Assembly: GCF_001261735.1 (NCBI RefSeq)
Contig: NZ_CVRP01000011.1
Location: 1 to 64,000, forward strand
DNA: 64,000 bases
From: Dysgonomonas sp. BGC7
Lineage (GTDB): Bacteria > Bacteroidota > Bacteroidia > Bacteroidales > Dysgonomonadaceae
Reading direction: 5' to 3'
Position numbers and translations under genes: made by a program. Shown piece after piece: positions 3,922-21,513 of the stretch. The notes beneath the pieces were generated by a model. The model saw only the letters and a list, made by a program, of their open reading frames with translations. It ran no database searches and was not told where the DNA came from. Each line of letters opens with the position of its first letter. Position 1 is the first letter of the stretch.

Positions 3922-4677
3922 TTACTTTAGAATTTCGAGCAATTCATCAGAAAGAGTGTCTATATTACTACCTTTTACAAGAGACTTATCGACAGGAAAC
4001 AGTGTGGATCGAAATAGGGCTTTATGGCTGACAGATTGTTCACGTCGAAATCGCAGGCTATTGGGGATAAATGTATTAAGGGTTGTAAACTCCAGCTCAT
4101 TAATCACCGCCTCATATACTTCGTAGAGTTCGGATTTTTCCCGTCCATCCACCAGATTCCAAAGCATATAAATTTCTTTAATATCGGATTTTCCACTGCC
4201 CATAATATCATCACGTACAGTGACCATGTAATCAAGTGTACTCTCCATCACCACACGGTCAGCCGCAATGGGAGCTATGATATACTCCATCCGTGCAAGC
4301 GTATGGATTAAATCTACATTGTTGAGCGTTCCCGGCAGATCAAAAAATATAAAATCAAAATCACCTTGCGGAATCAGGTGTTCAGCATCAGCAATAGCTT
4401 CTTTGGTATTGCTCTCGATGATGGGATAGGCTTTTTTGTTTTCTAAACGGGTAAACTGTTCGTACAGCATTCCCTTGTAATATTCGTCATTTTCGCACAT
4501 CTTAAAATCCCGCTCCCGCATATCTGCGATAGAATGCTGCGGGTAATCACAGTCAATTATCGCTACATTTTTCCCTTTTACATAATGTAGATAGGAAGCT
4601 ATCAATACAGTAAGAGTTGTTTTTCCGGCTCCACCCTTTTGGGTTGAGAATGCCACATAAATAGGTTTCTTTTTCAT
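3922..4677 (-). CDS. traA: TraA, ParA/MinD-type ATPase
   Basis: This is a 251-residue ParA-family ATPase, first gene of the tra operon. The deviant Walker A motif is KGGAGKTT at residues 14-21, with the signature second lysine replaced by glycine-alanine in the ParA manner. IIDCDYPQHS (residues 40-49) and FIFFDLPGTLN (residues 108-118) provide the A' and B motifs. ParA-like proteins of this element family are annotated TraA and probably organise transfer or partition of the excised circle. The gene is separated from its putative promoter (5060-5129) by about 380 nt of leader, which is unusually long. Confidence 0.92.
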   Translation of the reverse strand: MKKKPIYVAFSTQKGGAGKTTLTVLIASYLHYVKGKNVAIIDCDYPQHSIADMRERDFKMCENDEYYKGMLYEQFTRLENKKAYPIIESNTKEAIADAEHLIPQGDFDFIFFDLPGTLNNVDLIHTLARMEYIIAPIAADRVVMESTLDYMVTVRDDIMGSGKSDIKEIYMLWNLVDGREKSELYEVYEAVINELEFTTLNTFIPNSLRFRREQSVSHKALFRSTLFPVDKSLVKGSNIDTLSDELLEILK

Positions 4678-5129: not shown

Positions 5130-5462
5130 TATGCCTGTTGATTTTCAGGTGATTATTTTAGAATATAACTTTGCTGCATGAAACGTGAAAGAGGATTCAT
5201 ATCGGTTTTAAGTTTGTTCCGACATTCAAAAAATGCCTGACAGAGATCAGGCTTATATCCCGAAATTTTTCGGGCTAAGATGATGCCCTTTATGGGCAAA
5301 AAGTATTTGCATTTGGGCAAATAGCAAGGTATGTTGAGTGCATCGCAAAATGAATTTTGCAGCACACAACCCTTGCTCTTACAGAGGGGTATTTTCCTCT
5401 CCGAAGTCGGGAAAATAGAATCCGCACAACAATCCATCGTGTGCAGAAATTAAATAATAAAA
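5130..5462. other. Candidate oriT region, cluster of inverted repeats
   Basis: This gene-free stretch lies between the divergent tra promoter and mobA. Five short inverted repeats fall within 126 bp: GCCTGA/TCAGGC (5235-5252), CCCGAAA/TTTCGGG (5259-5274), TGCCC/GGGCA (5284-5298), ATTTGC/GCAAAT (5305-5322) and GCAAAAT/ATTTTGC (5345-5360). A dense cluster of inverted repeats just upstream of the relaxosome genes is the usual position and form of an origin of transfer. The nick site cannot be named from sequence alone. Apparent reading frames across this stretch resemble no family. Confidence 0.55.
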
Positions 5463-5489
5463 CGGTCTGCGACCGCACTAAAAAAATCA
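5463..5489 (+). promoter_or_regulatory. Hairpin + ACTAAAAAAATCA leader element (mobA copy)
   Basis: CGGTC-TGC-GACCG (5463-5475) is followed by ACTAAAAAAATCA (5477-5489), 4 bp before the mobA start. This copy has seven A residues where the others have six. It sits so close to the start codon that it probably acts on translation initiation. Confidence 0.6.
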
Positions 5490-5493
5490 TGTT

Positions 5494-5925
5494 ATGAACG
5501 AAGAAAAAAGGAATCCCGATAAACGGGGAAAAGGGGGCAGACCCCCGAAGAACGATCCGGCAAAGCATCGACTGACTGTGAACCTGACAGATCAGCAACA
5601 CGTCGATTTTTTAGCCTTGTATGAACAGTCAGGCGTACAATCCTTATCCGGATTTATCGCTGCCCGCATCTTTAGTGATGAGTTTCGTGTAGTGAAAACG
5701 GATGCTTCAGCAGTAGAATTTATTGCAAAGCTCACTGCTTTACACGGACAAATACGTAGTATTGGAGTCAATTACAATCAGGTTGTAAAGGAATTACATT
5801 CCAATTTTGGAGAGAAAAAAGCATTGGCATTGCTTTATAAATTGGAAAATGCAACTATTGAACTGTCAGGAATTGGACGGGAAGTGATGCAACTATGCGA
5901 ACAATTTAAGGCTAAACATCTCTAA
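5494..5925 (+). CDS. mobA: MobA relaxosome accessory protein
   Basis: This 143-residue protein belongs to the Bacteroides MobA family, a small ribbon-helix-helix-like DNA-binding accessory of the relaxosome. The N-terminus is strongly basic and Gly/Pro rich (RGKGGRPPKNDPAKHRLTV), followed by the family core LTDQQHVDFLALYEQSG. A helical C-terminus carries IRSIGVNYNQVVKELH. It should bind the adjacent inverted-repeat region and load the relaxase. The stop is 2 bp before mobB, so the two are co-translated. The start is fixed by the leader element ending 4 bp upstream. Confidence 0.88.
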   Translation: MNEEKRNPDKRGKGGRPPKNDPAKHRLTVNLTDQQHVDFLALYEQSGVQSLSGFIAARIFSDEFRVVKTDASAVEFIAKLTALHGQIRSIGVNYNQVVKELHSNFGEKKALALLYKLENATIELSGIGREVMQLCEQFKAKHL

Positions 5926-5927
5926 GA

Positions 5928-7181
5928 ATGGTTGCGAAATTTAGTCACGGAAGCAGTTTGTATGGTGCACTTTCCTACAATCAAGAGAAAGTAAATGAGG
6001 GTTTAGGAAAAGTTTTGGCGACCAATCTGGTCATTGAACCTAATGATGGAGTGTTCAATGTTGCCTCTTGTATGGAAGATTTCGAGCGATTTATCCCCTC
6101 GCATGTTCGCACATCAAAGCCTGTTATCCATATCTCACTCAATCCACATCCGGACGATAAACTGACCGATCAGCAACTTGCCGACATTGGTCGTGAGTAT
6201 ATGGAGCAGTTCGGGTATGGCGAACAACCCTACATGATTTTCAAACATGAGGACATTGGAAGAGAACATATACACATCGTTTCGACCCGTGTACGCACCG
6301 ATAGCTCGATAATCAGCGACAGCAAAAATTACGAACGCAGCAGGAAAATCACCGACTCTTTAGAACAAAAGTACGGTCTGCACCGGAAAGAGAAAAGTCA
6401 GGGTGAGACATGGCAACTTGCTCCAATAGACGTTAGCCAGGGGAACTTAAAAAAACAGGTGGCTAACGTCATAAAACCGCTTTCTGAAATGTATTCTTTT
6501 CAGACTTTAGGCGAATATCGTGCTTTACTTTCCTTATATAATATAGGAGTAGAGGAAATAAAAGGAGAAAACAAGGGTAAAGCATATCGGGGATTGGTCT
6601 ATTCGGCATTGGACAGTGATGGCAATCGTGTCGGTACACCTTTAAAATCCTCTTTGTTTGGTAAGGAACACGGTTTGGATAGACTGGAAAAACGATTTGA
6701 TAAGTCAAAAGAAACAATCAAGGCAAACGGCATAGCCAAACAAACCCGTGCTATTGTTTCTGCGTCCTTTGCAAGCACCCGCACAGAGAGCGAGCTCCGA
6801 GCAGCTTTGCGGGAGAAAGGTATCGACCTTGTGCTACGACTGAGCGATGAAGGACGCATCTATGGGGCTACATTTATCGACCATAATCAGAGGGAAGTTC
6901 TTAACGGTTCTCGTTTGGGTAAGGAGTTTTCGGCAAATGTTCTCAATGAACGCTTTGCAGATAATTCACCTCGCGAGAATCTGCAAGCACCAGCACTGAA
7001 ACATTCCGATAATAAGCAACCAACTGCCAATCAGCAATCGCAATCAACACACTCCGAAACGAACGATCCGGTGGGGAGTTTATTTTCTGTCTTTACTCCC
7101 GAAATCGAAGGAACAGACTATAAACAATCGAGCCTAAAACGTAAGAGGAAGAAGAAACGAAGATATGGAAGACAGATGTAA
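5928..7181 (+). CDS. mobB: MobB relaxase (MOBP/VirD2-like)
   Basis: This is a 417-residue relaxase that nicks oriT and leads single-stranded DNA into the recipient. The relaxase domain spans about residues 1-200. Its metal-binding three-histidine motif is H107, H114 and H116 (HEDIGREHIHIVSTRV). Y12 and Y17 near the N-terminus are candidates for the nucleophilic tyrosine. The C-terminal third is polar and ends with a highly basic tail (KRKRKKKRRYGRQ), probably for DNA or coupling-protein contact. The gene lies directly after mobA. In the basic layout of these elements mobC follows; here a HEPN gene on the other strand separates them. Confidence 0.93.
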   Translation: MVAKFSHGSSLYGALSYNQEKVNEGLGKVLATNLVIEPNDGVFNVASCMEDFERFIPSHVRTSKPVIHISLNPHPDDKLTDQQLADIGREYMEQFGYGEQPYMIFKHEDIGREHIHIVSTRVRTDSSIISDSKNYERSRKITDSLEQKYGLHRKEKSQGETWQLAPIDVSQGNLKKQVANVIKPLSEMYSFQTLGEYRALLSLYNIGVEEIKGENKGKAYRGLVYSALDSDGNRVGTPLKSSLFGKEHGLDRLEKRFDKSKETIKANGIAKQTRAIVSASFASTRTESELRAALREKGIDLVLRLSDEGRIYGATFIDHNQREVLNGSRLGKEFSANVLNERFADNSPRENLQAPALKHSDNKQPTANQQSQSTHSETNDPVGSLFSVFTPEIEGTDYKQSSLKRKRKKKRRYGRQM

Positions 7182-7275
7182 GTTTATTTACTTATTGGCA
7201 ATCTCAATAAAACATTGTTATTCATCGGTTAGTAAAGATATGCTACCTCTTTTTTTGTTTTTTATATTTAATTAT

Positions 7276-8523
7276 TTATTGAATAACTGATAATTTTAAG
7301 TGTTGAGGCTGTCTATTATACCATCGTATAGATTGAGAACAGGCTTCTTTCATAAATTCGTTCAATATTTCAAGATCAGCACTATCGCATTCATTATCTG
7401 TTATTTCATAATTTGATTTGGCATGAACAACTTTATTTCTTGTTGCATATATAATTTTGCCAACCATATTTGCCGCTGTTGTTAGACTTTGCTTATTTAT
7501 TGAATAATCAATAATTTGTAAATTAATTTGTTTTTTTACTTTTGATTTAATTTTTTCAGGTAATCTATCAAAAAGACCAATAAAGTCAAAGCAGTTAATA
7601 AATGTTGATTTAATAAGGTCTTCATCATTAAATTTTGCTCGCATAGATTTTGCAAGGTCAAATATAGAGCGAATAAAATCTCCATTCTCAAACTGTTTTT
7701 TAGGAGCATCCATCTTTTTTCGCATTAGCTCATGTGCTTCTATATTGACTGCGACAGGAGCAAAATGTTCAAGGATTTTATAAAAATTTAAAAAGCGCAA
7801 TTCCGCTTCTTGAATTTGTAATGCAGAAATAAATAACTTCATTCCTTCATTATATGGTTCAATATCTCTTAATTTACTGAAATTATATTCTCCTTCTTCA
7901 TCTTGTAAATCTTCATAATCATAAAGTGGATTTTTTATTTCAGAGAAGGTTACAGCTATCCCTGTACTATCTGCAACTTCAAATATATATGATTTTACAA
8001 GATTAAATTCCTCTTCTTTGTTTAATACTTCATTTGTATTATATTTAAGTTCAACTGCAAGATAAGGGGAGAAAGTTCCATAATAATTTTTATCATATTC
8101 TCCTAATGCAGTAGCAGCAAGCCCAATAATGAAATTATCCGAAACCAAATCAATATTAATATTGTCTTTTTTTGTACTAAAGGCTCCTAAAGTTGTGCTA
8201 ATTATGTGGTCATAATTTGAGTCAATAGCCTCTACAATATAATATCGTAAGTGTTTTGTCTTTATAATTGAATGATCTTCTGTTTTTATTGTCGGTATTT
8301 CGTCTGCTATTTCTAAAAACTCTTCGATAGAAATATCAATATCTTCTTGTTCTCCGGGAAAAGGAAAACTTGGCAATTCATAACCACCTTCTTTTACAAA
8401 TCCTTCAATATCTTCATCTGTCAGTATAAGCTCATCCCCATAATCGGCAAATTCCTCATAATTGACAATAAGGAAATTTATAGTTGATTGTATCTTTTTT
8501 AATTGTTCTCTTGTTAATTCCAT
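7276..8523 (-). CDS. HEPN-type putative defence protein (cargo)
   Basis: This 415-residue protein is on the opposite strand between mobB and mobC. The first 200 residues are acidic and not recognised. Residues about 230-375 look like a HEPN domain. A helix with RFLNFYKILEHF is followed about 115 residues later by RNKVVH (R362 to H367), which fits the R-x4-H catalytic motif of HEPN RNases and resembles the C-terminal domain of ApeA-like anti-phage proteins. HEPN proteins in mobile elements usually act as RNA-cleaving abortive-infection effectors; the antiphage role here is inference. It stands alone with its own probable -7 box. Nothing else in the neighbourhood looks like a partner or antitoxin. 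Confidence 0.68.
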   Translation of the reverse strand: MELTREQLKKIQSTINFLIVNYEEFADYGDELILTDEDIEGFVKEGGYELPSFPFPGEQEDIDISIEEFLEIADEIPTIKTEDHSIIKTKHLRYYIVEAIDSNYDHIISTTLGAFSTKKDNINIDLVSDNFIIGLAATALGEYDKNYYGTFSPYLAVELKYNTNEVLNKEEEFNLVKSYIFEVADSTGIAVTFSEIKNPLYDYEDLQDEEGEYNFSKLRDIEPYNEGMKLFISALQIQEAELRFLNFYKILEHFAPVAVNIEAHELMRKKMDAPKKQFENGDFIRSIFDLAKSMRAKFNDEDLIKSTFINCFDFIGLFDRLPEKIKSKVKKQINLQIIDYSINKQSLTTAANMVGKIIYATRNKVVHAKSNYEITDNECDSADLEILNEFMKEACSQSIRWYNRQPQHLKLSVIQ

Positions 8524-8543
8524 ACCAAGTTATATTATTGAGA

Positions 8544-8551
8544 CAAAGTTA
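8544..8551 (-). promoter_or_regulatory. -7 promoter element of the HEPN gene
   Basis: The minus strand reads TAACTTTG, a full match to the Bacteroidetes -7 consensus TAnnTTTG, 20 bp before the start at 8523. No clear TTTG was found at the -33 position. Confidence 0.45.
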
Positions 8552-8602
8552 ATAAATAGCTTCGATATTTTTCTTATTTTCAATACATAACGCTATATAT
8601 AG

Positions 8603-8672
8603 GACAACCCCAGACACAAGCTACCACCTCACTAAAATCGAGTATAATATTCTAAACCTCTACTTACATTCG
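8603..8672 (+). promoter_or_regulatory. Predicted mobC promoter with 27-bp shared box
   Basis: The box (GACAACCCC...ACCACCT) lies at 8603-8629. The -7-like TACATTCG follows at 8665-8672 after 35 nt, and the mobC start comes 41 nt later. Box-to-start geometry is identical to the copy at 16239-16308, and the two boxes match at all 27 positions. Confidence 0.65.
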
Positions 8673-8713
8673 CATTCTTTAATGAATTATAAACAATCTA
8701 AAATTCAATAACG

Positions 8714-10723
8714 ATGCAAAACGAAGATGATTTGAGAGGGCTTGCCAAAGTCATGGAGTTTATGAGGGCGATCAGTATTTTGTTCGTGCTGATGAATATT
8801 TATTGGTTCTGTTATCAGGCAATCCACGAGTGGGGAATCAATATTGGGGTGGTAGATAAAATACTAATGAATTTTAATCGTACCGCAGGATTATTCAACT
8901 CAATCTTGTGGACGAAAATATTTTCTGTAGTCTTTCTTGCTTTGTCCTGTTTAGGTATAAAGGGAGTAAAGGAGGAAAAGATTACATGGAATCACATCTA
9001 TGTATGTCTTGTTTTAGGATTTGTATTTTTCTTTCTGAATTGGTGGCTTCTGTATCTGCCTCTTCCTAAAATAGCCAATGCAGGTTTTTATATTTTCACC
9101 ATTGCTGTGGGATATATATTACTATTGATGGCGGGTACATGGATGAGCCGCTTACTCAAAAACAACCTAATGGACGATCCGTTTAATAACGAAAATGAAT
9201 CGTTTATGCAGGAAACCAAGTTGATGGTAAACGATTATTCGATAAACCTGCCTACCAAGTTCTGGTACAAAAAGAAGCAATGGAAAGGATGGATTAATGT
9301 AGTAAATCCTTTTCGGGCAGCTATCGTATTGGGTACTCCTGGTTCGGGTAAGTCTTATGCCGTTGTAAATCAATTTATCAAACAACAAATTGAGAAAGGT
9401 TATACAGGCTATATTTACGATTTCAAGTTTCCAGACCTTTCGACTATTGCTTATAACCATCTGTTAAACAATAGAGAAGGTTATAAGAAAGTACCGACCT
9501 TTTATGTGATAAACTTTGATGATCCAAGTCGTAGCCACCGTTGCAATCCAATTAATCCCTCTTTCATGGATGATATTTCGGATGCCTACGAAAGTGCATA
9601 CACAATTATGTTAAATTTAAACCGAACGTGGGTACAGAAACAAGGAGACTTTTTTGTTGAATCTCCGATCATTCTGTTCGCCGCTATTATATGGTATTTG
9701 CGAATCTACAAGGATGGTAAATATTGTACTTTTCCTCATGCCATAGAGTTTTTAAACAAGAGTTATGAAGATATTTTCCCGATTCTGACTTCGTACCCAG
9801 ACCTCGAAAACTACCTTTCTCCCTTTATGGACGCATGGAAATCTGGAGCTGCCGACCAGCTTCAAGGGCAAATTGCAAGCGCTAAAATACCACTTTCCCG
9901 TATGATTAGTCCACAATTATATTGGGTGATGTCGGGTGATGAGTTTACATTAGACATCAACAATCCGGATGATCCTAAAATATTGGCAGTAGGTAACAAT
10001 CCTGATCGACAAAATATTTACGGAGCAGCACTTGGATTGTATAACAGTCGTATTGTGAAACTGATAAATAAGAAGGGACAACTTAAATCATCTGTTATTA
10101 TTGACGAGCTTCCGACTATTTATTTCAAAGGATTAGATAACTTGATAGCTACTGCCAGAAGCAACAAGGTTGCCGTATTGTTGGGGTTTCAGGACTTTTC
10201 TCAGTTAAAGCGAGACTATGGAGACAAAGAGGCCGCCGTAGTGATGAACACAGTAGGTAATATATTTTCGGGGCAGGTAGTCGGAGATACGGCGAAGACC
10301 TTGTCTGACCGTTTTGGTAAAGTATTGCAGAAACGCCAATCTATGACCATCAACCGCAACGATAAATCGACTTCCATTTCTACACAAATGGATAGTTTGA
10401 TACCAGCATCCAAAATATCCAATCTGACACAGGGTATGTTTGTTGGGGCGATAGCAGATAATTTCGACGAGCGGATAGAGCAAAAGATTTTTCACTGCGA
10501 AATTGTGGTAGATAATGAACGTGTAGCTACCGAAACTAAAGCGTACAAGAAAATACCTGTCATCACTAACTTTGTAGATGAGAACGGAGTAGACCGTATG
10601 AAGGAAATGATTAAAGAAAATTATGACCGCATCAAAGCTGAGGCGAAACAGATTGTAGTTGAGGAATTGGAGAGAATTCGCTATGATGAGAATCTGCGAC
10701 ATTTGTTGCCGAAGGAGGAGTAA
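8714..10723 (+). CDS. mobC: MobC, VirD4-type coupling protein
   Basis: This 669-residue type IV coupling protein (TraG/TraD/VirD4 family; MobC in Bacteroides elements) links the relaxosome to the mating channel and pumps DNA. Three to four N-terminal membrane segments lie within about residues 15-145. The Walker A motif VLGTPGSGKSYAVVNQ is near residues 205-220. A Walker B-like segment VIIDELPTIYFKGLDNL lies near residues 458-475, and the TraG/TraD segment GFQDFSQLKRDYG follows it. It is separated from mobB by the inserted HEPN gene and is driven by its own promoter carrying the shared box. The call is secure from motifs and length. Confidence 0.94.
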   Translation: MQNEDDLRGLAKVMEFMRAISILFVLMNIYWFCYQAIHEWGINIGVVDKILMNFNRTAGLFNSILWTKIFSVVFLALSCLGIKGVKEEKITWNHIYVCLVLGFVFFFLNWWLLYLPLPKIANAGFYIFTIAVGYILLLMAGTWMSRLLKNNLMDDPFNNENESFMQETKLMVNDYSINLPTKFWYKKKQWKGWINVVNPFRAAIVLGTPGSGKSYAVVNQFIKQQIEKGYTGYIYDFKFPDLSTIAYNHLLNNREGYKKVPTFYVINFDDPSRSHRCNPINPSFMDDISDAYESAYTIMLNLNRTWVQKQGDFFVESPIILFAAIIWYLRIYKDGKYCTFPHAIEFLNKSYEDIFPILTSYPDLENYLSPFMDAWKSGAADQLQGQIASAKIPLSRMISPQLYWVMSGDEFTLDINNPDDPKILAVGNNPDRQNIYGAALGLYNSRIVKLINKKGQLKSSVIIDELPTIYFKGLDNLIATARSNKVAVLLGFQDFSQLKRDYGDKEAAVVMNTVGNIFSGQVVGDTAKTLSDRFGKVLQKRQSMTINRNDKSTSISTQMDSLIPASKISNLTQGMFVGAIADNFDERIEQKIFHCEIVVDNERVATETKAYKKIPVITNFVDENGVDRMKEMIKENYDRIKAEAKQIVVEELERIRYDENLRHLLPKEE

Positions 10724-10770
10724 ACGATAAGAGCCGTTCGGTGTACAAAATGTGATAATAATTAAATAGT

Positions 10771-10813
10771 AAAAAACAAACATTCAATATATAAAATTGG
10801 GTGTTTGTTTTTT
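10771..10813. terminator. Bidirectional terminator between mobC and abiH
   Basis: AAAAAACAAACA (10771-10782) pairs perfectly with TGTTTGTTTTTT (10802-10813). The A and T runs at the two sides allow termination of both converging genes. Confidence 0.7.
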
Positions 10814-10815
10814 TG

Positions 10816-12186
10816 TTAACTAAACGATCTTTTATTTTGAGGCAATAGTTCACAAAATGTTTTATTCACAACAACACTTCTCAACTTACTTTTATCCGTA
10901 AAACATCGGGATAAAGCTTGAATTATATCTCCATAATTATCCCATCCTTTTTCATTCTGATAATAATAAGGTTTTATCGACACACAATTTTCATGTTCAA
11001 ATAGAGTTCGCAACAAAGTGTTGTCTGACAAAGCACATGAATGCCCCATAATATAAACTTGATAAGGTGCAGCATTTATCAATGATTCTAACTTTCGATA
11101 ATTATTTGTTTCCAGATATTTCATTGATTTTATATTATCTAATACATGAGGGATTTTTGACTTTTCTAGTTTTTTATATTCGTCATCATATTCATCCCCA
11201 TACCCGAATATTATAGGATTAGATGGATCATTTAGTTTTCCGTGTATATGAATTGTTGAGGATGAATTAAATGAGACTGAGATTGGGCTCTGGTGTTCAA
11301 ATCTATATAGCTCCTCTGTATCTGTATAGTTAAATGTCAGAAAAGTGGTTTTATCTGGGGATAATAGTTCAGATATCAAATCACTTACATCAGTATTCAC
11401 CTCTTTACTTGTCATTTTAGAGAGATAATCTATAAACCAATCTTTAAAGTCTTTAAATCCTTCATATGTACCACCTAATCTAAATTTTTGGGCTAGTGAT
11501 GATCGTTCCTCTAACCAAATTTTTCTTTCCGGTGTATTCATGAAATTGATAATTTTAGAGGTCAAATCATCTTTGAAGTCTTTCTTGTAAAGCTCTTTTA
11601 TATCACGACCGAGTATTGGGGCTAGTATAATATCACTCATCCCTTCTACTTTAGATGGTTTGGGCAAGGTTAATAGATATTCAATAAGAGCTTGTTCTAT
11701 TTGCTGAAATTCTCGGTTTAGATTAATTATAGACTCTTCATCATTATTAAATTCAAGCAGTTTATCATAATAAGCTTGCTCAACATCTGACCATCCTTTA
11801 TCTACATAATTTCGTGTTATACTTATCAATAAGTCGTTTGTTCCTTTTTCGAAATATTCAGAAAAAACGAATGGGGTATCATGATAACCGACATCTAGAT
11901 CATTATTATTATCAAGAGCAAAAACAAAATGGAGGAGCTTTGAAATTGGGAATTTTTTATCATCATAAATTCTAGGATAACCCTTTTCTCTTAATTTTGC
12001 ATCATAAAGAAAAGCTCTAAATCGAATCATTTTTCGTTTATCGACAACAATCTGATCTTTATAACTTGGTCTTTCAAAGTTATCGGTAAGTAAGTCCTCC
12101 CATAACCACTCTACGAAGTTCCCATATCCTGTTTTCATCCCGTGTGCAAGATCAAAACCATTACCAATAAGTATTATTCGATTCAT
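10816..12186 (-). CDS. abiH: AbiH family abortive-infection protein
   Basis: This 456-residue AbiH-family protein (PF14253-like) is related to the lactococcal phage abortive-infection protein AbiH. The N-terminal IILIGNGFDLAHGMKTGY (residues 4-21) is diagnostic, as is GWSDVEQAYYDKL (131-143). TFLTFNYTDTEELYRF (281-296) and TIHIHGKLND (311-320) are further conserved blocks. GNGFD, FNYT and HIHG line up in order and spacing with the GSGLS, TNID and LHG motifs of SIR2-type NAD-binding domains, so a SIR2-like fold is likely; I infer this from motifs only. It is the last gene of the sir2-herA-ymh-abiH operon, 6 bp after ymh. Confidence 0.9.
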   Translation of the reverse strand: MNRIILIGNGFDLAHGMKTGYGNFVEWLWEDLLTDNFERPSYKDQIVVDKRKMIRFRAFLYDAKLREKGYPRIYDDKKFPISKLLHFVFALDNNNDLDVGYHDTPFVFSEYFEKGTNDLLISITRNYVDKGWSDVEQAYYDKLLEFNNDEESIINLNREFQQIEQALIEYLLTLPKPSKVEGMSDIILAPILGRDIKELYKKDFKDDLTSKIINFMNTPERKIWLEERSSLAQKFRLGGTYEGFKDFKDWFIDYLSKMTSKEVNTDVSDLISELLSPDKTTFLTFNYTDTEELYRFEHQSPISVSFNSSSTIHIHGKLNDPSNPIIFGYGDEYDDEYKKLEKSKIPHVLDNIKSMKYLETNNYRKLESLINAAPYQVYIMGHSCALSDNTLLRTLFEHENCVSIKPYYYQNEKGWDNYGDIIQALSRCFTDKSKLRSVVVNKTFCELLPQNKRSFS

Positions 12187-12192
12187 TATATT

Positions 12193-12999
12193 TTATCGTA
12201 TTTTATGTATATTATCAATCCTTTTGTGACAATAAGAAATTAAGGACATTATATCTAATGCATCTTCTTCATTTATTTCCCATTTTATTTTAACTTCATG
12301 AGCTGTTGGGTTTCTAAACATTCCATACAACCCTTTCAACAAATTAGAAAAACCTTTATGTTCTGATTTTTCACTTTCTGACACGAAATTATTGATTATG
12401 AGAATTGGAGAATCGCCTCCAAACACAGAATCAACCAATTTCCCACCATCTTCTCGAACTTCGGATATTTCTCTTATTCTATCAAACACACTTTTTGCAG
12501 CTTCCAATACAGAATGAAAATAGTTTTCAGCTAATAATTCTTCCTTACAATAATTGAAAATTTCTCGATGCGCCTTCCTTTGCTCTAATTTTGTTTTCAA
12601 ATCGTCTGCTTTTCTTTGAGCTTCTGAAATTGTAGATGCCTGTTTTATCTCGCTAAACTTTCCATTTTCATTCAGTTGATATCCAATAAAGCTTAATTGT
12701 TGGTTGATTTGATTTCTTTTTTCAGCAAAGACTTCTGGGTTATTGACATATTTTGCAGGAGCTAATGCGAGTCCGATAAAGTTCAATATGTGATTTGAAC
12801 ATCGATTCTCATTTTGATAAATAGCAAAAGCATCGTATATCCTTTTCCATTTAGTTGAAGTGGGCGATGCATCGGCTATTTTACTTTGTGCCAATAGGTG
12901 TTGTATTTCACTACCAGTCAAACCTGAACTTGTATCTCCAAGAATTTTAGAAATGCCTTCTAACGTCGGTTGTGTAAAACAATTTCTCAGTATTGCCAT
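12193..12999 (-). CDS. TIGR02391 (Ymh) family protein, HEPN-like
   Basis: This 268-residue protein matches the TIGR02391/Hypoth_Ymh family, often found in defence and mobile contexts and of unproven function. The N-terminus has a short helical region (FTQPTLEGISKILGD). A charged, probably coiled-coil region spans about residues 110-150. The C-terminal domain has the family signature GMFRNPTAHEVKIKWEINEEDALD. Within it RNPTAH (R229 to H234) fits the R-x4-H catalytic signature of HEPN RNases. It sits between herA (21-bp gap) and abiH (6-bp gap) in one transcription unit, which suggests it acts with one or both. RNase activity is inference from the motif. Confidence 0.82.
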   Translation of the reverse strand: MAILRNCFTQPTLEGISKILGDTSSGLTGSEIQHLLAQSKIADASPTSTKWKRIYDAFAIYQNENRCSNHILNFIGLALAPAKYVNNPEVFAEKRNQINQQLSFIGYQLNENGKFSEIKQASTISEAQRKADDLKTKLEQRKAHREIFNYCKEELLAENYFHSVLEAAKSVFDRIREISEVREDGGKLVDSVFGGDSPILIINNFVSESEKSEHKGFSNLLKGLYGMFRNPTAHEVKIKWEINEEDALDIMSLISYCHKRIDNIHKIR

Positions 13000-13020
13000 A
13001 ATCTACTAATGTATAATGAA

Positions 13021-14892
13021 TTAATCTTCCCAGTTTTTCAATAAATTGATTGTTTCATTATTGGGTTTATGTTGGCTTTCAATGGTGTCGATTGATATTA
13101 TTACAGGCATTTGAACCAATTGACCAGACAAAATACACATTCCCGTTCCCAATATAGGTAAGGCCTCCGTTGACACTTGATCTAGGTATGAGATAGCCTT
13201 TTCGACCATATCTAAATCTTTATTATTTACGAGCCTGTGAATAAAATAATTATGAAGTTGAGAAATAATAGTAGTGGATATATCAGACGGTCTTTGGCTT
13301 GCAATAGTGAGAAAAACTCCAAATTTTCGTCCTTCTTTAATTATTTCTTCAAATGTTTCCAATCTATAATCTTTCCATGATTCGCTTTCCCGAAGAGATT
13401 CATAGGATAAAATATTATGTGCCTCATCAATAATGATATTCAATGACTTTTCTAATTCATTGTCAGTCTTATGATTTTTGTGTTCTGAGTATAATTTGTG
13501 AGAAATAAGGAGCGGTATCAATTTCTTTATATTGATATTTGCTTCATTGAGATTTATAACAGCCAAATAATCATTATCCCAAAAGTCAATAGCACTATCC
13601 TTGATTTCTATAACTTTAGCAATATCTTTTTGGAAACTCTTTAATTTGTTTATAGCAGGGGCAATATGCTCGTTATTAGCCCTATTGGTTAGCACGTCAT
13701 GAATGAGTTGAAGATATAGAAAGTGTATGATTCTTGAAATGAAATCAGATTCAAATTCATACTGTTCAACCTGTTTATAAAGTTTGGTTTCTTTTACAAA
13801 GTTTCTATTTTCAATAAAACATTGGTAATTATTAAAATCTCCCAAGTAATAACAGAATTTATCTGGTCTCCACGCAAAATCGTCAATTAATCTACCCTCC
13901 TCACCATCTTTATTAATGTATTTAGGTAAAATCTGTTCTATGTAATCCAATAGTAATTTAGACTGTACCTTGTCTGACATACATAAAATTTCCTCTATTC
14001 GCTTTCTCAGAATATTATGAAAGTAGCCTAAAGAATCATTTACACCCATAACTTTTTTATAAAATTCGAGGGTTCGCCCAATGAATGGTTGTTGTGTTTT
14101 TTCTGATGCACTTGCCAGTATGGAAAACAAGTTCTTATCTAATAAGTCATTTTCAAAAAAAGGAAGTTTGTCTTTTCCTGTACTATCCTTCGTTGATAAG
14201 TTATAGACTTTTTTATTGCTTATAATTACATTGTCACCATTATATTCACCATTAAAATCAAAAAGCAGAAATCGCGCATTTCTCTTAAACTTATCCTGAT
14301 CTTCAAATGCCCTAAATAGTTGCCTATATATTTTAGCCAATGTATAAGACTTACCACTTCCCGTATTTCCAAATATCCCGATATGACTGGAGAATAGGCT
14401 ATTAACACCAACATATATTTCCTGCCCCCTCTCTAAAGCAAGAGTGCCTATTTGAATAGGTTTGTCATCCTGTTTAACAAATTGGTGAATTTGTTTAAAC
14501 TCTTCACTATTTAGCAGAAAACACTCATTATCTATGAGTGGCAGTTCTTTTATACCCCGCTCAAACTTTGCATTTTCAATATATCCAAGCAGTTTAGCAT
14601 TGAGGATTCTGTTTATTTTATTTTCTTCTTTTCCATACTCTTGTATAAACGGCAGCTTTTCTTCTTTAATAGATTCCCCTTCAATTTTAGCAATGATTGA
14701 AATAAAGCCTTTTTCTATTTTTACATACCCCCCAACAGATACATTCTTAATTAGACTTCCCTTATATAGCAAGTGAGAAGCATTCTTTACTTTATCAACC
14801 TTAACTTTAACTTCTCTTCCTTCCACAGAAAAGACAGTCCCAATCCTAAAAATAGAATTTTCCTGTAATATATTATCAACTCTATTGTCCAT
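13021..14892 (-). CDS. herA: HerA-like ATPase of a SIR2-HerA defence system
   Basis: This is a 623-residue HerA/FtsK-type hexameric ATPase with DUF87. Residues about 10-75 form the HAS-barrel (IGTVFSVEGREVKVKVDKV). Walker A is GIFGNTGSGKSYTLAKIY (K181), and Walker B is LNIIIDEAHNILSYE, near residue 487. SQRPSDISTTIISQLHNYFIHRL further on is the typical HerA sensor/arginine-finger region. HerA proteins paired with SIR2 form large complexes that degrade NAD+ on phage infection (established for other SIR2-HerA systems). It overlaps the sir2 stop by 11 bp, so expression is coupled. Confidence 0.93.
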   Translation of the reverse strand: MDNRVDNILQENSIFRIGTVFSVEGREVKVKVDKVKNASHLLYKGSLIKNVSVGGYVKIEKGFISIIAKIEGESIKEEKLPFIQEYGKEENKINRILNAKLLGYIENAKFERGIKELPLIDNECFLLNSEEFKQIHQFVKQDDKPIQIGTLALERGQEIYVGVNSLFSSHIGIFGNTGSGKSYTLAKIYRQLFRAFEDQDKFKRNARFLLFDFNGEYNGDNVIISNKKVYNLSTKDSTGKDKLPFFENDLLDKNLFSILASASEKTQQPFIGRTLEFYKKVMGVNDSLGYFHNILRKRIEEILCMSDKVQSKLLLDYIEQILPKYINKDGEEGRLIDDFAWRPDKFCYYLGDFNNYQCFIENRNFVKETKLYKQVEQYEFESDFISRIIHFLYLQLIHDVLTNRANNEHIAPAINKLKSFQKDIAKVIEIKDSAIDFWDNDYLAVINLNEANINIKKLIPLLISHKLYSEHKNHKTDNELEKSLNIIIDEAHNILSYESLRESESWKDYRLETFEEIIKEGRKFGVFLTIASQRPSDISTTIISQLHNYFIHRLVNNKDLDMVEKAISYLDQVSTEALPILGTGMCILSGQLVQMPVIISIDTIESQHKPNNETINLLKNWED

Positions 14893-16090
14893 TGTTATTG
14901 TTAATGGGGATCATCCTGCTGATTTGTTCGAACACTTCTGCATTTAAGGTCTTAAAATCAAAATTTACCACATTCTTTTTTAGCTTAGCTAACTTGTCTT
15001 TATCTCCTTCAGCATTAGTTTCGATAAAATTTGAAGGAGTAACAATCAGAATGTTATTGTTTTTTGATTTCCCATTGTTCAATTTAAGATATTCTTCAAA
15101 CTGACTCTTTTCATCATCTGAAAAAGAGAATATAATAATCAATAATGTTGGATTAGAGTCAGCTACTCGCATTGTGATTTTAGAGATATGTTCGTCAGCA
15201 AACGAAAATCCCATAACAAACAATAGCGAATTTTCTTTTTCTAATACATTAGAATATATTCGCATCAGTTCATAAAAATGCAGGTCGAGAACTGTGTCTT
15301 TAAATTTCTGTTTGGTCGGATTTATAACAACTAACTTGTCGTAACTGTCAGTAAATGGTTTTATTGCTTTTTTATCTATTTTAGATAGCGAGTTTGCTTT
15401 AGCAACTATTTCTGCAAGTGTCTCTTTTTTATCTATTTTTATAAGTACATCTTTCTTAATAGATTGTAAGGCTTTATTTGTCACTTGCACATTTTCTAAC
15501 AAACTATCATGAGATAATTGTTTTATATCTGTTCCGATTGATTTCCAATCTATTGATCCATGTAGTTTTAGCAAGTTGAAAACAGGAATTTCCGATATGT
15601 TTTGATAATGAGTACTTGTTTTTGTATATGATTTTTGAAAATTACCTTCATCAAAGACCGGATTTATTCGACCTTTAAAACCATCATTGAACTCTATTCC
15701 TGTTTTTTCTGCGGCACGCTCAACAAATAAGTCGATGTTAGTACTGAATATATTGATCTGTTTATTGTGCAGCCTGCTTGCTCTGCGTACAATAATATCA
15801 TTCCAGAGAATTAAAAATTGCCGATAAACCCCTAACACATCGTCAGAATAACCAACGATATCATCGTCAATCTCAGACTGAAGATTCGGCTTAATTACAT
15901 CAGTAAAATATTTCGCATATATTGAAGCTCGTATAATCTCTTTTTGAGGACTATTATCCTCTTTATTTAATTCTGTTAGCCAGTTTTCAATATCACCTAA
16001 AGTATTCAGATATGGACGTGACAAGCCAGAACCAATTAAGAAATTGATGTTGCAGGATTGGATCAGTTCTTTTATTTTTTCGATTTTCAT
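14882..16090 (-). CDS. SIR2-family putative NADase of a SIR2-HerA system
   Basis: This 402-residue protein has a SIR2 domain at the N-terminus. The glycine-rich NAD-binding motif is NFLIGSGLSRPYL (residues 16-28). IFSTNIDLFVERAAE carries the catalytic-type Asn118, and LLKLHGSIDW carries the catalytic-type His177. All three are intact, so NAD hydrolysis is expected. The C-terminal half (residues 230-400) is a separate alpha/beta region that includes SLLFVMGFSFADEHI, typical of SIR2_2 or DUF4020-like defence proteins. It is the first gene of the four-gene leftward operon and is preceded by a -7 box at 16115-16122. NADase with HerA is a known phage-triggered suicide module. Confidence 0.92.
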   Translation of the reverse strand: MKIEKIKELIQSCNINFLIGSGLSRPYLNTLGDIENWLTELNKEDNSPQKEIIRASIYAKYFTDVIKPNLQSEIDDDIVGYSDDVLGVYRQFLILWNDIIVRRASRLHNKQINIFSTNIDLFVERAAEKTGIEFNDGFKGRINPVFDEGNFQKSYTKTSTHYQNISEIPVFNLLKLHGSIDWKSIGTDIKQLSHDSLLENVQVTNKALQSIKKDVLIKIDKKETLAEIVAKANSLSKIDKKAIKPFTDSYDKLVVINPTKQKFKDTVLDLHFYELMRIYSNVLEKENSLLFVMGFSFADEHISKITMRVADSNPTLLIIIFSFSDDEKSQFEEYLKLNNGKSKNNNILIVTPSNFIETNAEGDKDKLAKLKKNVVNFDFKTLNAEVFEQISRMIPINNNNGQ

Positions 16091-16114
16091 TATTTGTTAC
16101 TTATAGGATTATCA

Positions 16115-16122
16115 CAAAGATA
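16115..16122 (-). promoter_or_regulatory. -7 promoter element of the defence operon
   Basis: The minus strand reads TATCTTTG, a full match to TAnnTTTG, 24 bp before the sir2 start. That implies a 5' leader of only about 15-20 nt. The -33 region has no clear TTTG. Confidence 0.45.
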
Positions 16123-16238
16123 GAGTATTTTACTGATACAGATATGAAAGCAAGACTCTATAGTTTTGTCTATTTACATTTTTCAGTTTAAACAATAAGA
16201 ATAGGAGGTAAAAACACCATATTCACCAATTGCGCATA

Positions 16239-16308
16239 GACAACCCCAGACACAAGCTACCACCTTTTTAAAACCTTGCAATCAGTCTATTAGTAAGATG
16301 TATTTTCG
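16239..16308 (+). promoter_or_regulatory. Predicted promoter of DUF4099 gene with 27-bp shared box
   Basis: The box at 16239-16265 is identical over 27 bp to the mobC copy. TATTTTCG (16301-16308) follows 35 nt later, and the start codon comes 41 nt after that. A TTG at 16276-16278 could serve as a weak -33. The flank GCATAGACAACC is shared with the tra copy. Confidence 0.65.
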
Positions 16309-16349
16309 CTTTGCATTAATGTTAATGCAGAATAAAAACATCATTTATT

Positions 16350-17912
16350 ATGGATCAAAACAAAGTGAAATCCGAAGAGCCTAAAGTCTTACTGACCCAA
16401 GGCGAAGATGGCAAATTAAAAGTCATCACAGGAGAGCAGGACGGTAAATTAAAAACCGTTGAACCCACCAAAGCGAATGCCGACCAGTTTTTAAAGGTTG
16501 ATACCAACAGCAACTTTCTGGAAAATTTCTTCAAAAAGATGTCGGCACAGTTCAATCACCCGTCACATACAGGGGTTTATGCTGTCGGGATGTCAGCCGT
16601 AGATAAAATAGCTGCTTTTCTTGACAAACTTATCCGTATCGATCATACCGATAAAGCTCTCGATCCGTATCGCCTTAAGTTTGATGGTAAGGTAAAGATA
16701 CATATTGAGCTAACAGGTCAGTTTCAACCCTTAGATCTCAATAAACTCAATTGGAAAGATACAGAGAAGCTGGGGCTTTCGGGTGAGAAGTTGCAAGATG
16801 CCCTCAAAGCAATGGTTTATGGGCATAAGTCACCCGGATTGGTCGATATCAAACCGACTATTGACGGTAATGAGTTCCCGATGCAGGCTCGCTTATCATT
16901 GGAACCACAGGAGGATGGTAGCATCAAGCTGGTAACCCATCCCAAACAGGAACAGCCCGATTTTGACAAACCATTCATGGGAATAAGCTTTTCCGAGCAG
17001 GACAAAGAGCAACTCCAAAAGACAGGGCATGGTGCACGAGTCTATGAATTAGAACCCATAGCCGGAGGAGAGAAAATTCCTTCGCTTGTATCTCTCGACA
17101 AAATGACGAATAGACTCGAAGCTGTCCCCATCTCCGAAATCAATATCCCCGAAACCTTGAAAAATGCCCCTCTTTCTCCCGAACAACAACAAGGATTGAG
17201 AGAAGGTAAAGCCGTATGGGTTGAGGGCATGGATAAGAAGGTAAAACCGGGAGAAGAACCACAGAAGATAGACCGCTTCGTACAGTTCAATGCCGTCAAT
17301 AAGAATTTTGATTTTAAGTTCAGTGACGAACAAAGGCAACAGCACAAGGAACAGCGACAAGCCAAACAGAGTGAAGGACAAGCACAGGAAAAGCCATTAC
17401 CCAAAGCCCGTAAAGTTGATGAGGTATGGATTTATTCTAAGCAAGGTGGCATACAGCTTAGTAAAGAAGAGTTTACCAAGCTGTGTAACAAAGAACCAAT
17501 CTTTGTTGAGGGCATGCAATCCCGTCCGAAACAACAACAACAAGCTGATGCTTCGGGAGCACAAAAAGTAGAAGCTACCGATCAGAAAGGACAGAAGTAC
17601 AATGCATGGGTATGGGTTGACGAGAGCAGAGATAAAGTTCGCCATACTTCGAAACATCCCGATCAAGTTCGAGCCATTGAAGCGAAGCAAGCTGCTAAGG
17701 ATTCTCAGAAAGTGACTCCTGCTGCCGAGAGTAAAACTCAGGTGGCTGTCAATAATGAGGGCAAGACCAACGAGGCAACTAAATATTCCAAAGAACCGCT
17801 AAAGCAAGGTCAGACACAGCCCACCGCCAAGCAAGTTGAGAAAAAGGAGCAGCAACAGGAACAAAAACAATCTCCTGCTGCCCCGAAGAAAAGCAAAGGA
17901 CGAAAAATGTAG
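16350..17912 (+). CDS. DUF4099/DUF3945 conjugative-element protein
   Basis: This 520-residue protein is typical of Bacteroidetes conjugative elements. The N-terminal part contains NSNFLENFFKKMSAQFNHP and a DUF4099-like region. DUF3945-like repeats follow, with segments such as FMGISFSEQDKEQLQKTGHG, APLSPEQQQGLREGKAVWVEGM and IQLSKEEFTKLCNKEPIFVEGM. Each has the pattern of a helix, an LxxG turn and a strand ending VEGM. The last 130 residues are Gln/Lys rich and disordered. The function is unknown. It sits 56 bp before topB and is driven by the shared-box promoter, so it is expressed with the excision/transfer machinery. Interaction with the topoisomerase or DNA is a guess. Confidence 0.85.
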   Translation: MDQNKVKSEEPKVLLTQGEDGKLKVITGEQDGKLKTVEPTKANADQFLKVDTNSNFLENFFKKMSAQFNHPSHTGVYAVGMSAVDKIAAFLDKLIRIDHTDKALDPYRLKFDGKVKIHIELTGQFQPLDLNKLNWKDTEKLGLSGEKLQDALKAMVYGHKSPGLVDIKPTIDGNEFPMQARLSLEPQEDGSIKLVTHPKQEQPDFDKPFMGISFSEQDKEQLQKTGHGARVYELEPIAGGEKIPSLVSLDKMTNRLEAVPISEINIPETLKNAPLSPEQQQGLREGKAVWVEGMDKKVKPGEEPQKIDRFVQFNAVNKNFDFKFSDEQRQQHKEQRQAKQSEGQAQEKPLPKARKVDEVWIYSKQGGIQLSKEEFTKLCNKEPIFVEGMQSRPKQQQQADASGAQKVEATDQKGQKYNAWVWVDESRDKVRHTSKHPDQVRAIEAKQAAKDSQKVTPAAESKTQVAVNNEGKTNEATKYSKEPLKQGQTQPTAKQVEKKEQQQEQKQSPAAPKKSKGRKM

Positions 17913-17930
17913 AAATATAAAATAATAAAA

Positions 17931-17960
17931 GGGTCTGCGACCCCAACCACTAAAAAATCA
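17931..17960 (+). promoter_or_regulatory. Hairpin + ACTAAAAAATCA leader element (topB copy)
   Basis: GGGTC-TGC-GACCC (17931-17943) is followed after 5 nt by ACTAAAAAATCA (17949-17960). The topB start is 8 bp further on. The hairpin is the same sequence as in the traE copy. Confidence 0.6.
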
Positions 17961-17968
17961 ATGTTACA

Positions 17969-20077
17969 ATGAAAATAATAATAGCGGAAAAACCCTCTGT
18001 GGCTAAAAGTATAGCAGCCATAGTCGGAGCAAACAATAAAAAAGAATCCTATATAGAAGGTAATGGATATGCCGTTACGTGGGCTTTCGGGCATCTGATC
18101 GGACTCGCTATGCCGGAGCATTACGGTATCACAGGCTTTCAAAAAGAGAACCTACCGATACTCCCAAAAGAATTTAAACTCTTGCCTCGACAGGTCAAAG
18201 AGGGGAAGGAGTATAAGAATGATCCTGGAGTGATGAAGCAACTAAAGGTTATCCGCGAGTTATTCCATCGTGGAGAATCTATAATTGTGGCGACTGATGC
18301 CGGACGAGAAGGGGAACTCATATTCCGCTATATATATGAATATATAGGATGCACCCTTCCGTTTGAAAGGCTTTGGATCAGCTCGCTTACCGACAGAGCC
18401 ATTAAAGACGGCTTTAAAACCCTTCGTCCCGGAGCTGAATATGACAATCTGTACGCTTCCGCCAAAGCTCGCAGCACCGCTGACTGGCTCGTAGGCATCA
18501 ATAGCAGTCAGGCTCTTTCAATCTCGGCAGGGTATGGTGTTTGGTCACTTGGCAGGGTACAAACCCCGACATTGGCGATTATTTGTAGTCGGTATCTGGA
18601 AAATAAAGAGTTTAAATCACAGACCTATTTTCGCTTGAAATTGCAGGCAGAAAAAGAAGCAACATCGTTCTGGACTCATTCAGTAGATAAATTTGATACC
18701 AAAAGTCAGGCTGAAGAGATTACAGCAAAGGTAAAAGCCACAGGAAAGATACTCGTTACAGCAGTAGAACGAAAGGAAGTCAAACAAGAACCACCCTTGC
18801 TGTATGACCTTACTTCACTTCAAAAGGAAGCCAATAGCAAGTACGGTTTCTCGGCGGACAAGACGCTGACTATAGCTCAAAGTCTGTATGAAGCCAAAAA
18901 AATCTCCTATCCACGAACAGGGAGCCGTTATATTTCCGAAGATGTGCTGGAGGAAATACCACACCTGATCGCTACACTTCGTTCGCACTCACTTTTTAGG
19001 TCCTATATTGATGGACGATTTGATACCAAACTCAATACCCGTTCGGTCAATGATGCTAAAGTGACCGACCACCATGCACTGATTATCACAGAAGAACCGG
19101 CAGGCAATTTACCCAAAGACGAACAGCTTATCTACGATATGGTTGCCGGACGTATGCTTGAAGCCTTTGGCGAACGTTGCATCAAAGAGAACACCACCGT
19201 ATCACTTGATACCGATGGCGTACACTTTTCCTGCAAAGGAAGCGTTACACTCGTCCCCGGCTGGAGGGCGGTATTTGATACTAAAGACGAGCCAAACGAT
19301 GAAGAGGATTCCATCACTTTACCTGTTCTTCTGGAGGGAGATAATCTTTTTGTTCGTGATTGCGAGATTCAAGAAAAGCAGACGAAGCCCCGCCCATTGC
19401 ATACGGAGGCAAGTTTGCTTAGTTATATGGAGTCAGCAGGCAAAGAGGTGGAGGACGAACAACAGCGTGAGGCAATGAAAGAATGCGGTATCGGAACACC
19501 TGCCACCCGTGCATCCATTATCGAAACGTTGTTTTCCCGTGAGTATATCGTCAGAGAGAAAAAATCTCTTGTTCCGACCAATAAAGGACTGGTGGTCTAT
19601 CTGGCGGTCAAGGACAAGAAGATAGCCGATGTAGCTATGACAGGACAATGGGAGGAAGCCTTAAACAAAATAGCTTCGGGAGATATGGATGCGGTTACCT
19701 TCCACAAAGGAATAGAAATCTATGCCTCGCAGATAACTACGGAACTGCTTTCTACAGTCATCGAACGCACGGATAATTACAATACTTGTTCTTGTCCTAA
19801 GTGTAAAAACGGACAGGTGGTATTTTATCCCAAAGTGGTAAAATGTAAGGATGAAAATTGCGGACTGGCCGTATTTAAAACCATTGCTAAGAAAGAACTG
19901 ACGGACGGACAACTCGATGATCTTTTGATAAATGGCAAGACTGCACTGATAAAAGGGTTCGTAAGTTCTAAGACCGGAAGTACCTTTGATGCCATCGTAA
20001 AATTTGATGCGGACTACAAAACGGTTTTTGAGTTTCCAACACGCAAAGAAGGTCACAAGAAGAAACGTTCGAAGTAA
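17969..20077 (+). CDS. topB: DNA topoisomerase III (Exc-like)
   Basis: This is a 702-residue type IA topoisomerase of the TopB family, equivalent to Exc of CTnDOT, where a topoisomerase III is part of the excision operon. The N-terminal TOPRIM domain reads IIAEKPSVAKSIAAIVG, with IIVATDAGREGELIFRYI further on. The active-site tyrosine is Y314 in ISYPRTGSRYISEDV. A GRVQTPTLAII segment precedes it. A C-terminal four-cysteine zinc ribbon is present (CPKCKNGQVVFYPKVVKC...CGLAVF), starting near residue 610. The family is recognised with certainty. The role in element excision is by analogy. The gene is preceded by the conserved hairpin leader. Confidence 0.95.
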   Translation: MKIIIAEKPSVAKSIAAIVGANNKKESYIEGNGYAVTWAFGHLIGLAMPEHYGITGFQKENLPILPKEFKLLPRQVKEGKEYKNDPGVMKQLKVIRELFHRGESIIVATDAGREGELIFRYIYEYIGCTLPFERLWISSLTDRAIKDGFKTLRPGAEYDNLYASAKARSTADWLVGINSSQALSISAGYGVWSLGRVQTPTLAIICSRYLENKEFKSQTYFRLKLQAEKEATSFWTHSVDKFDTKSQAEEITAKVKATGKILVTAVERKEVKQEPPLLYDLTSLQKEANSKYGFSADKTLTIAQSLYEAKKISYPRTGSRYISEDVLEEIPHLIATLRSHSLFRSYIDGRFDTKLNTRSVNDAKVTDHHALIITEEPAGNLPKDEQLIYDMVAGRMLEAFGERCIKENTTVSLDTDGVHFSCKGSVTLVPGWRAVFDTKDEPNDEEDSITLPVLLEGDNLFVRDCEIQEKQTKPRPLHTEASLLSYMESAGKEVEDEQQREAMKECGIGTPATRASIIETLFSREYIVREKKSLVPTNKGLVVYLAVKDKKIADVAMTGQWEEALNKIASGDMDAVTFHKGIEIYASQITTELLSTVIERTDNYNTCSCPKCKNGQVVFYPKVVKCKDENCGLAVFKTIAKKELTDGQLDDLLINGKTALIKGFVSSKTGSTFDAIVKFDADYKTVFEFPTRKEGHKKKRSK

Positions 20078-21066: not shown

Positions 21067-21513
21067 ATGGCAACAAAACCAAAGACGGCAGTCACAGAAC
21101 TGTCCTATTTCCGACTATCCCTATTGTCCTACCTACGTGATACACACCCCGACAAAGCAATTGACAATGACTTTATTGCTGTACGTGGTGATGCCGCAGC
21201 AGAAGTGTATAGCCAAGCTATAAAAGCAGGGCATACCCATGACTATGCAGAAGAATTCTCTTCAAAGGTCTTATACGAAGGCTTGATCTTCTCCACTTAC
21301 CGAACCCTTGTAACTATCCTCTGGGAAGAATTTTCCGAAGAAGTAAACCCTTCACAAGCCGAAGGCATAGCAATGGAGCTATTATCCCGCCTTACGGATA
21401 CGATTCAAAAATACATCTTGTCTGACGATTTTGCCGATACACCAGAGTACAATCAGTTTTACACGGAGCTGACTGGCGAAATACAAATACTTCTCGAAAA
21501 TGGCTTACAATAA
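21067..21513 (+). CDS. DUF1896 conjugative-element protein
   Basis: This 148-residue protein of the DUF1896 family is found almost only next to the methylase/helicase gene of Bacteroidetes mobile elements. It is all-helical in appearance, with the family segments LSYFRLSLLSYLRDTHP, ARGDAA-type FIAVRGDAAAEVYSQAI and YEGLIFSTYRTLVTILWEEF. The function is unknown. It overlaps the downstream methylase gene by 14 bp, so the two are translationally coupled and probably act together. The start at 21067 is supported by the leader element just upstream. Confidence 0.87.
   Translation: MATKPKTAVTELSYFRLSLLSYLRDTHPDKAIDNDFIAVRGDAAAEVYSQAIKAGHTHDYAEEFSSKVLYEGLIFSTYRTLVTILWEEFSEEVNPSQAEGIAMELLSRLTDTIQKYILSDDFADTPEYNQFYTELTGEIQILLENGLQ

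Follow-up and report, generated by a model that had tools for sequence, protein, structure and literature searches.

Probable stacking of three known kinds of defense module: an unusual sir2-herA, ymh, and abiH arrangement seen in one Bacteroidota element

Gene content and genetic setting of the locus

Reading of the open reading frames in the window, i.e., the whole analyzed stretch of 64,000 nucleotides from Dysgonomonas sp. BGC7, revealed the four genes sir2, herA, ymh, and abiH, all of them intact and encoded on the minus strand (Table 1). sir2 and herA overlap by 11 bp, herA and ymh are separated by 21 bp, and ymh and abiH by 6 bp; the original prediction of four intact, tightly spaced genes held to the exact coordinate.

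Table 1. Coordinates of the four genes, the flanking genes, and further features of the cargo slot
Feature	Position	Strand	Description
sir2	14882..16090	-	402 aa; SIR2_2 domain, predicted NADase subunit
herA	13021..14892	-	623 aa; DUF87 ATPase
ymh (TIGR02391; PADLOC PD-Lambda-3_B)	12193..12999	-	268 aa; helical N-terminal domain and C-terminal HEPN region
abiH	10816..12186	-	456 aa; PF14253
ymh unit, swap boundaries	12183..13018	-	BLASTN homology to L094, L095
candidate terminator	10724..10815	-	A+T-rich stretch between genes; hairpin with T run 3' of abiH
slot border, YWFCY/TraG-like coupling protein gene	8714..10723	+	
slot border	16350..20077	+	DUF4099/DUF3945 protein (16350-17912), topoisomerase (17969-20077)

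The hairpin located 3' of abiH yielded a z-score of -2.93 (folded as 10724-10830). Scanning the region 10600-16400 for terminators returned four sites, every one within coding sequence (1.8 +/- 1.4 in shuffles) and none in the gaps between the four genes. Judged from these sequence features, the presence of sir2-herA-ymh-abiH on one transcript is plausible. Sigma-70-like promoter sites numbered 30 against 29.9 expected; the consensus behind this count is not known to fit Bacteroidota. In terms of composition, GC3 amounts to 0.23-0.28 in the four genes versus 0.41-0.44 in four neighboring genes of the element (TraG, DUF3945, topoisomerase, and the gene at 5928-7181). Within 10600-16400, 16 families of direct repeats of at least 16 nt were detected, none of which has one copy close to each end of the sir2-herA block (13019 and 16245); an insertion of this block is not marked by direct repeats.

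The four-gene block was taken to occupy a cargo slot in a conjugative element whose host would belong to the Bacteroidota. Farther to the left of the slot are a putative ParA-like gene (3922-4677) and two genes that we take to be of the mobilization type (5494-5925 and 5928-7181), all three named by inspection of their sequences. The slot DNA (10000-17000) gave no match when compared with plasmids in near mode. A second slot, between the mobilization-type gene and TraG, hosts a 415-aa gene on the minus strand (7276-8523, GC3 0.168) with the sequence RNKVVH at residue 362, which is HEPN-like by motif alone; PADLOC returned nothing for this gene, and Pfam nothing above the gathering score. On the plus strand, an N6 DNA methylase and a SNF2/helicase-domain protein are encoded by two ORFs lying 9 bp apart (21500-24499 and 24509-27310).

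Family assignment of the four proteins

SIR2 was assigned to Pfam SIR2_2 (44.4 bits; cut-off 24.5) and to the PADLOC SIR2 model (203 bits), HerA to Pfam DUF87 (70.5 bits; cut-off 23.2) and to PADLOC PDLC04097 (644.9 bits, residues 13-622, E 3.5e-194). The original claim that SIR2-HerA represents a known pair was right. N118 and H177 of SIR2 are invariant in all 11 aligned proteins; HerA has a Walker A motif (GNTGSGKS) from residue 175 and a Walker B motif (IIDEA) from residue 487, with K181, D489, and E490 invariant in nine of nine aligned proteins. These are the catalytic residues of the SIR2 and P-loop families. As in SIR2-HerA (Nezha) systems, the window has neighboring SIR2_2 and DUF87/HerA genes, the proteins keep the catalytic N/H pair as well as Walker A and B, and their sequences match the solved chains 8yhx/8yho, 8j4u, and 8w9l/8wiv. 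However, both proteins score far under the cut-offs of the NCBIfam equivalogs SIR2_antiphage (85.9 of 500 bits) and HerA_antiphage (146.0 of 800 and 146.1 of 850 bits), and the pair was therefore kept out of these narrower families. According to excerpts of PMC11559045, SIR2-HerA homologues assemble into a 12:6 complex that acts as an NADase once the cell is infected by phage, and excerpts of PMC12198126 provide a further source on the mechanism.

Ymh matches Pfam Hypoth_Ymh (137.4 bits; cut-off 25), NCBIfam TIGR02391 above its cut-off, and the PADLOC model PD-Lambda-3_B (277.1 bits, residues 7-266, E 3.4e-83). R229-X4-H234 is invariant in two alignments (11/11 and 26/26 proteins) and agrees with the R-X4-6-H rule of HEPN RNases, Arg-X4-His being given as HEPN motif in excerpts of PMC11087260. 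The original description of this protein as HEPN-like was right. In the literature (excerpts of PMC3710099 and PMC3506569), the family is placed among the HEPN domains, and both fusions to AbiJ-NTD1, AbiTii, and pMORC and an association with restriction systems are described for it. This placement together with the motif points to a predicted RNase, whose activity may be triggered by phage. The AlphaFold model (pLDDT 85.6, pTM 0.54), in which residues 231-238, inside the motif loop, are of low confidence, had no Foldseek match at E<=0.001. Re-examination of Foldseek's own match list suggested some resemblance to HEPN at 144-267 and to CARD domains at about 3-105, with modest Z values under the level the tool regards as safe for helical models.

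Although Ymh matches component B of PD-Lambda-3, PADLOC detected no PD-Lambda-3_A at E<=0.1 among the five proteins it was run on, and the operon was not classed as PD-Lambda-3. That system is reported as abortive (excerpts of PMC13190303) and holds a PD-(D/E)XK nuclease part according to a review table (PMC10952713, in excerpt). The available excerpts of PMC9519451 on PD systems mention neither "PD-lambda-3" nor "ymh", and those of PMC8195603 on death domains do not mention "Ymh". Within the open-licence literature, ymh, HEPN, and SIR2 occur together in one paper; TIGR02391 alongside AbiH, HerA, or SIR2 was absent among the matches listed.

AbiH matches Pfam AbiH (PF14253) with 94.2 bits (cut-off 30.9) over residues 4-404, unlike the PADLOC AbiH model, which yielded just 27.6 bits with residues 3-53 as best stretch. 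The motifs GNGFD (8-12), FNYT (285-288), IH (314-315), GDE (330-332), and GHSC (381-384) are invariant in 17 of 17 aligned proteins. A SIR2-like nature of AbiH is a published prediction (excerpts of PMC3506569). In our alignment of AbiH with SIR2, hhalign reported a probability of 1.6% (E 0.031) with IHIHG aligned to KLHGS, compared with 0.1% (E 0.42) for the ymh control. The combination of AbiH, SIR2, and Bacteroides was not found in the open-licence literature.

Distribution of the modules

Genome collections, which may omit records of or near the window genome, were examined for joint occurrence of the genes. In the phylum sample (395 genomes), ymh is present in 14 genomes, with a match over most of the protein in seven, the window genome among them, and mainly over the HEPN part in the others; abiH is present in 19. 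HerA-like proteins occur in 106 genomes; at E<=1e-100, the limit set for a close herA, two remain, the window genome and G116. Besides the window genome, two of the three (ymh, close herA, abiH) were encountered in G424 alone, as ymh and abiH on the contigs C39 and C45. Weak HerA-like matches, belonging to other HerA families and left out of the close-herA counts, accompany ymh in G103, G208, and G466 and abiH in G157 and G234. In the order sample, herA (E<=1e-60) was detected in 4 of 393 genomes, the window's own included. The family sample (101 genomes) showed ymh in three, herA (E<=1e-30) in four, and abiH (E<=1e-10) in 11 genomes, with all three together only in the window genome (G000) and a congener (G024). 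The G024 contig is near-identical to the window (12,100 bp with 11 mismatches, 99.909% identity; plus 499 bp at 96.8%) and therefore represents the same element; seven of the 11 differences are grouped at 22537-22600. In G090, herA and abiH pieces reside on separate contigs.

The abiH loci read in 11 of the 18 other abiH-bearing genomes of the phylum sample contain no ymh, sir2, or herA homologue, and the same applies to the family sample (10 stretches from 9 of 10 other genomes, excluding the stop-bearing pieces of G090). Among 65 viral-contig loci (44 ymh and 21 abiH, with an ORF match in 41 and 19, respectively), none hosts a second gene of the set, and herA as a single protein was not confirmed in any viral contig. 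Plasmid records matched ymh 122 times; five were opened; in one of them ymh is followed by Hachiman HamA and a helicase, and none has an annotated AbiH or SIR2-HerA. For herA, 614 plasmid records matched, and in the three opened a SIR2 gene precedes herA and no gene is annotated as ymh or AbiH. abiH was matched by one partial plasmid record. The original prediction had named near-absence of co-occurrence elsewhere beforehand as the genomic part of the case against a joint system, and the separate distribution in the phylum and family samples constitutes exactly this finding. The suggested fusion into a single four-gene system was not supported in the samples searched, in which the quartet is confined to one element and each module also occurs without the others; with no second diverged example, we rejected it as the best reading. 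The alternative suggestion, a ymh-abiH pair traveling with sir2-herA, was likewise rejected, given that no such pair appeared outside this element in the loci read.

Six other close sir2-herA relatives were available (genomes G116, G090, G098, G657, G604, and G522; loci L082, L195, L196, L275, L276, and L277), and the stretches read (4.4 to 16 kb) contain neither ymh nor abiH. Unlike the window pair, five of the six are located in a restriction-modification context, either type I or ISP. The gene orders are HsdM-HsdS-sir2-herA-two genes-HsdR in L082, HsdM-one gene-HsdS-sir2-herA-HsdR in L277, HsdS-HsdR-sir2-herA in L276, and sir2-herA-HsdR in L196, a type ISP enzyme adjoins the pair in L195, and the 7.2-kb contig of L275 carries a gene for an integrase.

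Genome contigs from 84,980 species, each represented by a single genome, were scanned and provided 470 ymh relatives, the best 80 of which were kept. Many of these loci are shorter than the requested 10-kb flanks, and 78 had a called ymh gene, L158 and L162 giving no ymh ORF. None of the best 80 of 470 loci contains an abiH homologue and one contains sir2-herA, namely L150 from Indibacter alkaliphilus (5261-10783), in which SIR2-HerA, a NERD-type gene, and ymh follow in a row with sir2-herA upstream; its subfamily (PDLC04075/PDLC04103) is unlike that of the window. A TraG homologue lies within the stretch in 24 of the best 80. A same-strand neighbor within 100 bp accompanies ymh in 59 of the 78 called genes and is lacking in 19.

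The partners of ymh, named from one scanned representative per BLAST cluster, were found to be diverse. Within the best 80 of 470 loci, they comprise a nucleoid-associated NA37 protein (11 loci, four also with LmuA and LmuB), an AbiJ_NTD3/Abi_C protein (7), a PLD-like protein (5), HsdS (3), a DNA methylase (3, two of which, L108 and L111, add a ResIII-domain protein and a Fic protein), and AbiEii (2). Partners of 276, 378, and 893 aa had no family match at E<=0.001. Four loci under four organism names (L134, L135, L136, and L137) share one ymh-NA37 island in which genes and gaps are of equal length, which points to recent spread.

Replacement of the genes around ymh

As in the window, ymh adjoins DUF3945/topoisomerase in seven of the best 80 of 470 loci, with TraG on the opposite side in five and an earlier contig end in the other two (L096 and L099). 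The occupants next to ymh differ: a 276-aa protein without family match is encoded downstream in L094 and L096-L099, another downstream gene is present in L095, and an AbiEii gene lies upstream in L102. In L094 (12634-17162), the TraG homologue is present as two pieces, ORFs of 485 and 243 aa, which flank an ORF of 632 aa. BLASTN comparison of the window with L094 and L095 returned a single ymh block of 77.0% and 76.3% identity, respectively, which opens 18-19 bp before the start codon and ends at the stop (L094) or 10 bp after it (L095). Homology resumes at 16245 upstream and 10736 downstream. The five other slot loci show the same block, from 12188 or 12194 to 13002 or 13018, and BLASTN found no counterpart of the sir2-herA block or abiH in any of the slot loci. 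As homology breaks at both edges of ymh, the flanking units were swapped separately from it.

Interpretation

Since the quartet was observed in one element only among the genomes searched, stacking is favored over one new machine. We consider it likely that three independently acquired defense modules of the abortive type (sir2-herA, ymh, and abiH) have been stacked within a single variable cargo slot, perhaps on one transcript. Directly established are the identity and order of the genes, the preservation of the catalytic motifs of SIR2, HerA, and Ymh, the separate distribution of the modules in the samples searched, and gene-sized swap boundaries of ymh, and the quartet is best explained as three known kinds of defense module in an unusual arrangement. 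Against stacking stand the overlap and the gaps of 21 and 6 bp, which are tighter than mere proximity requires, as well as the unrelated sir2-herA one gene upstream of ymh in Indibacter, a hint of favored pairing. The common low GC3 of the four genes also fits arrival as one block. Given that the best 80 of 470 ymh relatives were kept and many loci lie on short contigs, rarer quartets may exist.

By analogy with the known systems, HerA would bind SIR2 and switch it on, and SIR2 would deplete NAD+ after phage infection. Ymh may function as a phage-triggered HEPN RNase, the N-terminal helical domain of which would sense or relay the trigger, and AbiH may abort infection, possibly by a SIR2-like activity. 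Acting in parallel, the modules would widen the range of phages stopped, thereby protecting the host and, as a consequence, the element.

The invariant R-X4-H motif of Ymh and the modest likeness of its N-terminus to CARD adaptors allow a bolder reading. Ymh might be a portable effector, composed of a CARD-like adaptor and a HEPN RNase, that serves as accessory in unrelated defense operons (Lamassu, AbiE, AbiJ-type, type I/III restriction, and SIR2-HerA) and is triggered via adaptor contacts once its host system has fired or been overcome. We regard this as rather unlikely; if true, SIR2-HerA would become a two-stage NAD-then-RNA shutdown here. A narrower proposal, in our view unlikely, limits the system to sir2-herA-ymh, with Ymh as a second effector that is freed once SIR2-HerA has fired or failed, and abiH as a passenger. 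The other SIR2-HerA subfamily upstream of the L150 ymh, even with a NERD-type protein between, and the position of ymh next to other multi-gene defense cores speak for such a trio, but it amounts to one of the best 80 of 470 ymh loci, ymh is absent from the flanks read around the six close relatives of sir2-herA, and the 19 of 78 ymh genes without close same-strand neighbor do not fit. An integrated four-gene system, in which SIR2-HerA senses the phage, Ymh and AbiH are added effectors, and all four are needed, would account for the overlap, the short gaps, the one orientation, and the single candidate terminator after abiH; in light of the missing second diverged example and the finding of each module without the others, we judge it very unlikely. 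Most improbable is a two-gene ymh-abiH system like PD-Lambda-3 with AbiH replacing the first component, as the operon has no PD-Lambda-3_A match and the loci read hold no other ymh-abiH pair, despite the match of Ymh to PD-Lambda-3_B and the abortive phenotype reported for that system.

Read as stacked modules, the locus offers a DNA-level view of how the defense slot of a mobile element is reassembled one gene at a time about an occupant that recurs, and a warning that close spacing by itself is not proof of a new defense system. The part worth study is Ymh, a HEPN family recurring beside many unrelated defense cores. In its way of working it can be likened, from descriptions and not by sequence comparison, to Tha, a single-gene HEPN defense of S. 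aureus prophages (excerpts of PMC11087260), with which it shares an N-terminal part followed by a C-terminal HEPN region with Arg-X4-His, as well as a presence in phage and prophage records. ymh was recorded in nine named phage records, six of them Streptococcus phages. The ymh genes of viral contigs (L245-L271) are, L253 apart, more distant (30-35% identity), and most of these viral and phage ymh genes appeared in ORF picking with no close same-strand neighbor.
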